The position numbers and the translations under genes were made by a program. Positions 9,139-11,205 of a DNA stretch of 11,205 nt are shown one piece after another (position 1 is the stretch's first letter; each line of letters opens with the position of its first letter). The DNA comes from an uncultured Candidatus Melainabacteria bacterium (GTDB lineage: Bacteria; Cyanobacteriota; Vampirovibrionia; Gastranaerophilales; Gastranaerophilaceae): positions 1 to 11,205 of the forward strand of contig CAKUZO010000057.1 of the NCBI GenBank assembly GCA_934717895.1, given 5' to 3'. A model generated the notes under the pieces. It was not told the DNA's origin. It saw only the letters and a program-made list of their open reading frames with translations, and ran no database searches.

Positions 9139-9390
9139 TCCATACCCCTCTTATCATGATAATATTTTACTTTAAAAAAATATCTATTGCAATTATTTCA
9201 CCACAAAAGCCTGTGATAAATATTAACATTTGTAAATATATATTATGTATATGTTATAGATATCTAATACAGTGGTATACATGAAGTATAAACCATTTTC
9301 TTTTTCTTTATTTTCTCCTACACACACTAACCTTTTACCAAATATGAGATTGGCCGTTTCTAACGGCTATTTTTATATAAAAATTAAACA
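9139..9390 (-). promoter_or_regulatory. Leader and probable promoter region upstream of lptB
   Basis: This stretch is very AT-rich, without a gene I can support. The lptB promoter should be here, since thrS upstream ends at a strong terminator. A weak candidate on the minus strand is TTGTGG, 18 bp, TATTTT in about 9177-9206; no clear consensus promoter is visible. A small hairpin (9195-9205 with 9212-9221, about 9 bp with two G-U pairs on the minus strand) would form in any longer lptB leader. Confidence 0.35.
9353..9374 (+). terminator. Palindrome with T-run: plus-strand terminator or operator
   Basis: GCCGTT (9353-9358) and AACGGC (9362-9367) form a perfect 6-bp inverted repeat with a 3-nt loop. 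On the plus strand it extends to 8 pairs, including one G-U. TTTTT (9370-9374) follows, giving the shape of a small plus-strand terminator, but no plus-strand gene upstream is convincing. The same palindrome falls between candidate -35 (TTGGCC, 9350-9355) and -10 (TATATA, 9374-9379) boxes of the downstream small RNA, so it may instead be a repressor site. Confidence 0.4.
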
Positions 9391-9456
9391 TAGATTTGAC
9401 CCGCACAACTATTCAGTCATAGTAGCGGATTACAGGCAGACTTGGTTACTCCGTTT

Positions 9457-9465
9457 ATTATATCA
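9457..9465 (-). promoter_or_regulatory. Extended -10 box on the minus strand
   Basis: Read on the minus strand the sequence is TGATATAAT, a perfect extended -10 element. No matching -35 box is present 17 bp upstream. If active it would start near 9450, run antisense to the small-RNA candidate and reach lptB with a leader of about 310 nt. Part of the match falls in the AT-rich terminal loop of the RNA fold, so chance is possible. Confidence 0.3.
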
Positions 9466-9521
9466 GGTCTGCCTGATGTTATGCGAATAGTAATCTAACT
9501 TATTTCAAAAATTATATGCAT

Positions 9522-9556
9522 AAAAATAAGGTGCAAGGTTTTTGCACCCTATTTTT
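9522..9556. terminator. Strong bidirectional intrinsic terminator after thrS
   Basis: GGTGCAA (9530-9536) and TTGCACC (9542-9548) form a perfect 7-bp stem with a 5-nt loop. Outside one mismatch the stem continues with A-rich bases at 9522-9528 against a T-rich run at 9550-9556. Either strand therefore ends in a T-tract: TATTTTTTT on plus, TTATTTTTAT on minus. It would terminate thrS on the minus strand and the candidate small RNA on the plus strand. Confidence 0.88.
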
Positions 9557-9582
9557 TTATTTAACGTTTTTGAAAACATTAA

Positions 9583-11205
9583 TTAAGCTTTAACCAATGC
9601 TTTTGCAAAAGATTCAGCGCTTCTTGATTTAATTTCATCTTCAACTTTTCCGATGAACTCATCAATTTTCATGGTACCAACTTGACCAATTCCACGAGCA
9701 CGAACTGCAACTGAATTTGCCTCAATTTCCTTATCACCGATTACACAAACGTAAGGTATTTTCTTGTCTTGTAAACTTTCTCTGATTTTGTAGTTCATAC
9801 TTTCAGATCTGTCGTCAAGAGTTACTCTGATACCTGCATTGCGCATTTGTTTGTAAACTTTTTCAGCAAAGTCAATGTGTTTTTCGTTGCTGATTGGTAC
9901 GATTGCAACCTGTGTTGGAGCAAGCCATGTTGGGAAAGCGCCTGCATAGTGTTCAATTAAGATACCATGAAAACGTTCCATTGAACCAAAGATTACACGG
10001 TGAAGCATTACAGGGGTTTTCATCTGTCCGTCTTTGTCTTGATATTTAATATCAAATCTTTCAGGCAAGTTGAAGTCAAGTTGAATTGTTGCACACTGCC
10101 AAGTTCTACCAATAGCATCTTTTACCTTGAAGTCGATTTTTGGACCATAGAAAGCGCCATCGCCTTCGTTGATGTCGTATTTCATTCCTCGTTTGTCCAT
10201 TGCTTCTTTCAAGCCGGCTTCTGCTCTGTTCCAGTTTTCGATTTCTCCAACGTAGCTTTCAGGTCTTGTCGAAAGTTCAACTTCAAAAGACATATTGAAT
10301 ATTTTCATTGTATCAGCTACAAAATCGATAATTTCGTTGATTTCATCAACTAATTGTTCCGGTGTACAGAAAATGTGTGCATCGTCTTGTGTGAAACCTT
10401 GAACACGTGTCAAACCTGATAATGCACCTGATTTTTCTTTTCTGTAAACTGTTCCGAGTTCAGCCATTCTCAATGGTAATGAACGGTAAGAGTGTCTGTT
10501 TGCTTGATAAATCAAGATGTGGAACGGACAGTTCATCGGTTTCAAGATAAATTGATCTTCATTTTCTTGATCGCTATCTTTTTGTATAAAGAACATATTT
10601 TCACGGTAGTGATCATAGTGACCTGAAATTTCCCACAATTTTGATTTTGCGATGTGAGGAGTGTTAACGATTACATAACCGCGTTTTCTGTGTTCTGTTC
10701 TCCAATAGTTTTCGATTTCTTCTCTTACTACTGCTAAGTTAGGGTGCCACAAAACAAGTCCGCCGCCCAATTCATCTCTTGTTGAGAATAAGTCAAGTTT
10801 TGCACCAAGTTTTCTGTGATCACGTTTTTCTGCTTCTTCTATGAAATGCAAGTAGTCAGCCAAATCTTCTTTTGACCAAAATGCTGTTGCATAAATTCTT
10901 TGAAGCATTTTATTTTTTGCATTCCCTCTCCAATATGCACCTGCAACTTTAAGAAGTTTGAATGCGTTAGCTTTAATATATGATGTATTTGGAAGATGTG
11001 GTCCGGCACAAAGATCGTTGAATAGAACATTTCCGTCTTTGTCTTTTGTTAAGTACAAAGTCGGATTGTCGTTTTTGTGTTCTTCCAAAAGTTCAGCTTT
11101 GTAAATTTCACCTTCTGCTTTAAATTCAGCGATTTGTTTGTCCACGTCAGGGATTACGTATTTTTCAAATGAAAGATTTTGTTTAACAATATTTTTCATT
11201 TCTTC
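9583..11205 (-). CDS. thrS: Threonine--tRNA ligase ThrS (5' end cut by the window)
   Basis: ThrS charges tRNA-Thr with threonine. At least 540 residues are visible. The reading frame stays open through the window edge (two Glu codons precede the Met at 11199), and that Met aligns inside the protein. About 100 N-terminal residues are therefore missing, including the TGS domain and the first half of the editing domain. Numbering from that Met, the rest of the editing site is seen as CAGPH (C64, H68). The class II catalytic core shows motif 2 (about 248-270: GTVYRKEKSG, LTRVQGFTQDDAH), the zinc ligands C224 (MNCPFH), H275 and H400 (VMLHRVIFGSMERF), and motif 3 in that last stretch. The anticodon-binding domain starts at about 426 (APTQVAIVPIS). 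Any T-box or leader would lie outside the window. It ends at a strong terminator. Confidence 0.97.
   Translation of the reverse strand, partial: EEMKNIVKQNLSFEKYVIPDVDKQIAEFKAEGEIYKAELLEEHKNDNPTLYLTKDKDGNVLFNDLCAGPHLPNTSYIKANAFKLLKVAGAYWRGNAKNKMLQRIYATAFWSKEDLADYLHFIEEAEKRDHRKLGAKLDLFSTRDELGGGLVLWHPNLAVVREEIENYWRTEHRKRGYVIVNTPHIAKSKLWEISGHYDHYRENMFFIQKDSDQENEDQFILKPMNCPFHILIYQANRHSYRSLPLRMAELGTVYRKEKSGALSGLTRVQGFTQDDAHIFCTPEQLVDEINEIIDFVADTMKIFNMSFEVELSTRPESYVGEIENWNRAEAGLKEAMDKRGMKYDINEGDGAFYGPKIDFKVKDAIGRTWQCATIQLDFNLPERFDIKYQDKDGQMKTPVMLHRVIFGSMERFHGILIEHYAGAFPTWLAPTQVAIVPISNEKHIDFAEKVYKQMRNAGIRVTLDDRSESMNYKIRESLQDKKIPYVCVIGDKEIEANSVAVRARGIGQVGTMKIDEFIGKVEDEIKSRSAESFAKALVKA

Follow-up and report, generated by a model that had tools for sequence, protein, structure and literature searches.

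The window (the whole 11,205-nt stretch of DNA that was analysed) carries a small RNA, here called A, followed by a structured element, B, in the intergenic region between an LptF/LptG and an ABC ATPase match in Pfam on one side and a class II tRNA synthetase match on the other (Table 1). The gene names were assigned by us from Pfam, the ABC ATPase being read as lptB and the synthetase as thrS. The thrS gene of the window shows up to 95% identity to Candidatus Gastranaerophilales genomes (best 80 loci of 365 relatives), and since lptB was absent from the fetched flanks of all 80 related thrS loci (0/80; up to 3 kb, shorter at contig ends), lptB next to thrS is an unusual gene order.

In many copies from relatives, the gene 5' of A is lptB in divergent orientation or a plus-strand pilin-like gene. 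At least four kinds of gene are found on the far side of B. The convergent gene is thrS in the window, has a trpS-like C-terminus in 22 of 38 copies (C-termini read by eye; the one such gene tested matched Pfam tRNA-synt_1b), and carries an N_methyl motif in other copies (two tested with Pfam). B travels with A, whatever neighbour gene stands beyond.

Three further observations concern the gene context. The window has thrS (9583-11205) where relatives L081-L088 carry the trpS-like gene beside B, and this swap is either a rearrangement at this site or, with lower probability, a join made in assembly. In L113, L129 and L131, genes with N-methylation (pilin-like) motifs flank A-B on either side, in a manner resembling an insertion hot spot. 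Runs of 10-12 G are present near the starts of frames 3' of A in L133, L138, L181, L183, L193 and L198, as in phase-variable genes; the frame in L193 appears pilin-like by eye.

Table 1. Features of the A-B region, in window coordinates
Feature	Position	Strand	Basis
Putative promoter of A: TTGTAA, then extended -10-like TGTTATAGA (9252-9260)	9230..9261	+	conserved block, 31-row alignment
sRNA A: 5' hairpin, long open C/U-rich stretch, terminator	9267..9376	+	conservation, single-strand fold; both ends inferred
5' hairpin of A	9271..9297	+	fold
Core of A, CTTTATTTTCTCCTACA, predicted unpaired	9306..9322	+	exact in relatives; fold
Terminator of A	9351..9376	+	terminator scan; stem recurs with varying sequence, 29-row alignment
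P1 of the original prediction, 5' arm	9391..9396	+	seen in the window alone
Hairpin 1 of B (HP1, CCGC/GCGG), loop with AGTCATAGT (9415-9423)	9401..9428	+	recurs with different stems in relatives
P2 of the original prediction, 5' arm	9408..9414	+	seen in the window alone
Hairpin 2 of B (HP2, equal to P4 of the original prediction), loop with CTCCGTTTAT (9449-9458)	9433..9475	+	double changes; model matches
Terminator-like hairpin between B and the thrS end	9530..9557	+	terminator scan

The upstream small RNA A

The original prediction described a rod-shaped RNA in the region of B; just upstream of this rod lies a plus-strand terminator, absent from that prediction, which ends a separate and more conserved RNA, A. 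The open stretch of A carries CTTTATTTTCTCCTACAC, and its core is unchanged in all 91 A loci compared, namely the window and 90 others selected for their similarity to A. The putative promoter hexamers were read from conservation; the block is missing from the output of a consensus promoter scan, which gave 5 sites against 4.3 expected by chance. One of the hexamers ATGTTA, ACGTTA or TTGTTA is found 5' of A in 80 of the 91 loci, a count made without a chance control.

A loop-anchor scan found B in 38 of the 91 A loci. Several B-free loci among those listed have unrelated sequence or the next gene straight after the A terminator, and A is therefore regarded as a complete unit. Used together as a 307-nt query, A and B matched at least 175 of 288 family genomes with E no higher than 0.001; the weakest of these matches may be due to chance. 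In a phylum sample of 386 genomes, a model of A found matches in 119 (E 0.01 or better), including two that look like chance (genomes of 4.8 and 7.2 Mb; E 0.008 and 0.0098). More distant A copies read CTTTATTTTCTCCTCCACTCC. Divergent A-like RNAs in which a CTCCTCCACTCC, CTCCTCCACTAT or TTCACTCCTTTTCTCC-like stretch replaces CTCCTACAC were also seen (L261, L263-L266, L268-L277 and L280).

Hairpins, covariation and distribution of element B

B is very probably a selected RNA structure. The rod drawn for it consisted of four co-linear helices, which are all found at their places: P1 and P2 (3' arms 9492-9497 and 9485-9491), P3 (9418-9423/9478-9483) and P4 (9433-9444/9464-9475). They contain 31 base pairs rather than the 34 claimed, and three plus-strand G-U pairs, of which two lie in P3 and one in P4, rather than four. 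The RNA element is real, but its drawn shape is not supported: across aligned relatives only P4 and HP1 recur, and P1 and P2 were seen in the window alone. Enforcing the rod helices on the window sequence gives -30.4 kcal/mol versus -33.6 for the free minimum, which contains the CCGC/GCGG stem of HP1 together with P4. The conserved core, 9401-9478, comprises two hairpins, HP1 and HP2. Compared with shuffled sequences, the plus strand folds at z -5.06 and the minus strand at z -5.73, and because both are far below the shuffles, stability gives no strand bias.

With positions 9381-9560 as the query, 8 of the 20 nearest genomes gave a match with E no higher than 3.2e-7, seven of these matches spanning approximately 9414-9480 and one 9381-9458. 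A nine-row alignment matches the relatives to the window over the core and upstream of 9378, and not over P1, P2 or the hairpin at 9530-9557. The compensatory changes anticipated for a selected structured RNA are present in relatives, in P4: double changes occur at 10 of the 13 HP2 pairs among 21 aligned copies, with 93.9% of cells pairing, and the HP2 covariation of 0.462 compares with a shuffled mean of 0.239 (0 of 500 shuffles reach 0.462) and with at most 0.130 when the partners are slid. Six short minus-strand matches in alignment A5 were left unused. Pairing of each copy's own arms points in the same direction, the median score being 24.5 versus 15 for swapped arms in HP2 (4.8% of swaps reach the real median) and 14 versus 10 in HP1 (13.4% of swaps).

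In relatives the HP2 stem has about 12-15 bp and the HP1 stem is short. The stem letters vary (CAGGCAGAC/GTCTGCCTG, CAAGCCGATATGC/GCATGTCGGCTTG, and CGGGTCGGTGCGC/GCGCGCCGACCCG, the last with a bulge), and they do so more than the loops. Of 38 copies, 31 show CTCCGTTTA in the HP2 loop (28 show CTCCGTTTAT) and the other 7 a CACC variant, and the HP1 loop has CATAG in 32 of 37 copies and ATAGTC in 29 of 37; the 38 copies were located by loop anchors, so that this conservation is partly by construction. A covariance model of B matched 30 of the 288 family genomes at E 0.01 or better, with a single copy in each, and in all 30 genomes B lies directly 3' of A on the same contig and strand. The distance from the A stem to the HP1 loop ranges from 16 to 83 nt.

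Two other readings of the region were rejected. The plus-strand open reading frame over it is not conserved: A changes in 2-nt steps of ACAC, and B through gaps of odd length. By eye, the HP2 loop (TCCGT) could form a pseudoknot with GCGGA, a partner that is missing in clades with other HP1 stems.

Strand and origin of B

We consider it likely that B is made from the plus strand, as had been predicted, on evidence that supports this orientation without proving it. The orientation shared with A in all copies, the varied neighbours, the minus-strand terminator-like hairpins that separate the gene from B in 6 of 38 copies and the wobble pairs of HP2 favour the plus strand; the wobble pairs of HP1 and the lack of a scored plus-strand terminator in 35 of 38 copies count against it. 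The prediction had argued for the plus strand from G-U pairs, an argument that holds weakly for HP2 (27 internal G-U versus 12 A-C in 36 distinct copies) and fails for HP1 (9 G-U versus 23 A-C in 34 distinct copies, mostly one clade-shared C-A); taken together, 36 G-U versus 35 A-C leave the strand unsettled. The terminator said to follow the rod is real on the plus strand of the window as the hairpin at 9530-9557, but from HP2 onwards a plus-strand terminator-like hairpin is present in just 3 of 38 copies, the window included. The terminator scan does not score loops longer than 9 nt, so most HP2 forms are outside its scope. On the minus strand, TTATTTTTAT comes after the hairpin at 9530-9557, which could also act for thrS, a reading made by eye and not scored by the scan.

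If B were instead made from the minus strand, it would be a 3' UTR element or a small RNA of the convergent gene, and its loops would show GGAG- and AUG-like sequences, forming a decoy for RNAs that bind ribosome-binding sites or a stabiliser of mRNA ends. The minus strand folds equally well, in 27 of 38 copies the longest downstream minus-strand frame stops 20-43 nt beyond the HP2 loop, and the HP1 wobbles fit this strand. Just 6 of 38 copies have a scored minus-strand terminator-like hairpin separating the convergent gene from B, which speaks for this reading; those six copies themselves argue against B as a 3' UTR of the convergent gene. Because B tracks A and not any particular neighbour, and the HP2 wobbles fit the plus strand, we regard a minus-strand origin as unlikely.

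On the plus strand, B could be a stand-alone small RNA with a promoter of its own, placed within A or directly after it. The A terminator is good, and its T count is similar with and without B (7.2 of 10 in 38 B-bearing loci versus 7.6 of 10 in 50 B-free loci), as such an arrangement would have it; the spacer between the A stem and HP1, however, is variable in both length and sequence, and the sole plus-strand promoter-like match near B, 9396-9423, overlaps HP1. This makes an independent B improbable, and the stand-alone unit of 165 nt in the original prediction finds no support, the element being an accompaniment of the upstream A.

A purely DNA-level role, as protein-binding inverted repeats or as a barrier between convergent transcripts with no RNA made, would suit the inverted repeats, the mostly convergent intergenic gap and the usual lack of a scored terminator around B. 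A DNA site is expected to conserve its arms, whereas the stems of B vary freely while the loop letters stay constant, and HP2 contains G-U pairs; we think this role very unlikely. The last alternative, a variant of 6S RNA, to which the prediction had likened the element, recommends itself by the size of the proposed unit and its elongated overall drawing, and can practically be dismissed, given that Rfam searches at E up to 5 for the window and up to 1 for 20 related loci gave no 6S match and that the rod is not conserved.

The reading that we favour over these alternatives is that B forms the second part of a two-part small-RNA locus in Gastranaerophilales, a proposal that in our judgement stands about as good a chance of being right as of being wrong. 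The conserved promoter-like block would drive A, an RNA of about 110 nt ending at its terminator, and B would be produced by read-through as part of a longer A-B RNA, or be cut from such an RNA. No conserved promoter of B's own was seen, and B lies at a short and variable distance past A; read-through is for this reason its most likely source, and taken by itself we hold it to be an evenly balanced supposition.

Possible targets and relation to known systems

The functions proposed for A and B are read from sequence. A would offer its open CTCC-containing stretch, and B the CTCC- (or CACC-) containing loop of HP2 and the CATAG loop of HP1, for pairing in trans with the ribosome-binding sites of mRNAs, whose translation would then be blocked; CTCC is complementary to a Shine-Dalgarno sequence. 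Such pairing by A and B is conceivable, if on balance somewhat doubtful.

A comparison with the 810 gene starts found within 800 kb of one B-bearing genome gave the ribosome-binding site of sepF (ATAAACGGAG) as the longest match to the HP2 loop, and the start of an OmpR-type response regulator gene, identified by Pfam, with GACTATGACT over the ATG, as the longest match to the HP1 loop. When each genome's own loops were used in 28 B-bearing genomes (from 30 searched), the sepF match to HP2 has 10-14 nt in 21 of the 28 genomes and is shorter in G121 (9 nt), G098 (7 nt) and all five CACC-clade genomes tested (5-6 nt). The match of the regulator start to HP1 has 10-11 nt in 14 of 27 genomes, 8-9 nt in 11 and 6 nt in 2. 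A different base beyond the core often goes with a different loop (TTTATC with GATAAA, TTTATT with AATAAA), with exceptions in G008, G091 and G062 (TTTATT with GATAAA). In the sepF leader, ATAAACGGAG is present in 25 of 28 B-bearing versus 16 of 29 B-free genomes, and AACGGAGG in 28 of 28 and 22 of 29, respectively; the B-free set is made up of 30 genomes minus G036, which carries HP2. Since the site is common without B, the sepF match is suggestive at most, and it may be due to chance (by a rough estimate, the chance of such a match at some Shine-Dalgarno (SD) site is about 0.2 per 800 kb). We therefore rate sepF as a rather unlikely candidate for a real target of B. Where the leader keeps AACGGAGG, the sepF start is mostly GTG (L365-L392, L420-L449). 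In the CACC clade, 4 of 6 genomes have ATAGGTGGTG, which is complementary to the usual loop, nowhere except at B; the remaining two have it at five other places, inspected briefly.

Scores summed over the two loops reach 13 or more at 9 starts (shuffled mean 6.5, maximum 16; no clear excess) and 11 or more at 141 starts (shuffled mean 75.7, maximum 132 in 40 shuffles), a modest excess that may be due to SD and AUG content. Joint targeting of SD and AUG by the pattern ACGGAGN{0,20}CTATGA was rejected, with a modest 46 matches versus 31 for the reversed control in 19 genomes, as was an orthologue pair with both elements, other members of the family being without a full match. A matches three gene starts of a single genome over 13-16 nt. 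Two of these, a 195-aa orphan and a Band_7 gene, were discarded with longest matches of no more than 11 nt in other orthologues with readable leaders; the third appears adenine phosphoribosyltransferase-like by eye. As long matches are not kept in orthologues, A, if it pairs with leaders, would act mainly via the SD sequence. The HP2 loop may also be complementary to a segment of 23S rRNA; the corresponding pattern was not found in 800 kb of one B-bearing genome.

B is a real structured RNA element, new within the searches made, that lies beside a widely conserved small RNA of gut Melainabacteria. None of the Rfam 15 families attains its cut-off at A or B, either in the window or in 20 relatives, in line with the original prediction, which had placed the element in no family. 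Three sub-threshold matches were taken as chance: STnc40 on the minus strand of the window at 9524-9591 (26.3 bits, cut-off 45), BTnc231 over B in L144 (27.2, cut-off 80.4) and Phe_leader just past B in the same locus (30.6, cut-off 55). A literature search by title and abstract start gave no paper on small RNAs of this kind in Gastranaerophilales or Melainabacteria. A catalogue of 3161 intergenic structured-RNA candidates from human microbiomes does not name either group in its main text (PMC8040213), and A or B may be among these candidates, unnamed, in its supplements. The near-invariant A and its covarying companion B provide a concrete entry point to the small RNAs of these bacteria.

6S RNA is a rod with a large central bubble. 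B has the size range alone in common with it and lacks this architecture, having two conserved hairpins, with P1 and P2 seen in the window alone.

The closest likeness is to two small RNAs of cyanobacteria. Yfr1 is described as an RNA of 54-69 nt with the undecanucleotide ACUCCUCACAC in an unpaired stretch of 16-20 nt (PMC2190773). Compared by this published description, A is Yfr1-like in its layout of a 5' hairpin, an unpaired near-invariant CTCCTACAC and a GC-rich 3' terminator hairpin with a U tail, and differs in having CUCCUACACAC where Yfr1 has ACUCCUCACAC, in its length of about 110 nt (ends inferred) and in an unpaired stretch of 44 nt in its fold (PMC2190773). A has the layout of Yfr1 without its exact motif or length. 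The host organisms come from a related group; the exact 11-mer of Yfr1 is absent from 800 kb of one relative, and no convincing match to the A model was found in the large genomes of the 386-genome phylum sample. The genomic neighbours of Yfr1 differ from those of A.

Yfr10 is described as carrying its motif in a hairpin loop (PMC6778093), and B resembles it in carrying a CUCC-containing motif in a loop that caps a stem. Each of the two systems has two small RNAs, with the motif open in one and looped in the other, and B differs from Yfr10 in its two hairpins and its CUCCGUUUAU, with no Yfr1/Yfr10 motif (PMC6778093). It is a long shot that A corresponds to Yfr1 in non-photosynthetic bacteria and that B is a clade-specific partner whose two loops read the SD and start-codon regions of cell-division (sepF) and OmpR-type regulator mRNAs, which would tie growth control in the gut to an RNA regulator that cyanobacteria also have. 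The pair of A and B allows the question to be asked whether Yfr1-type regulation is older than the photosynthetic cyanobacteria or had two origins.
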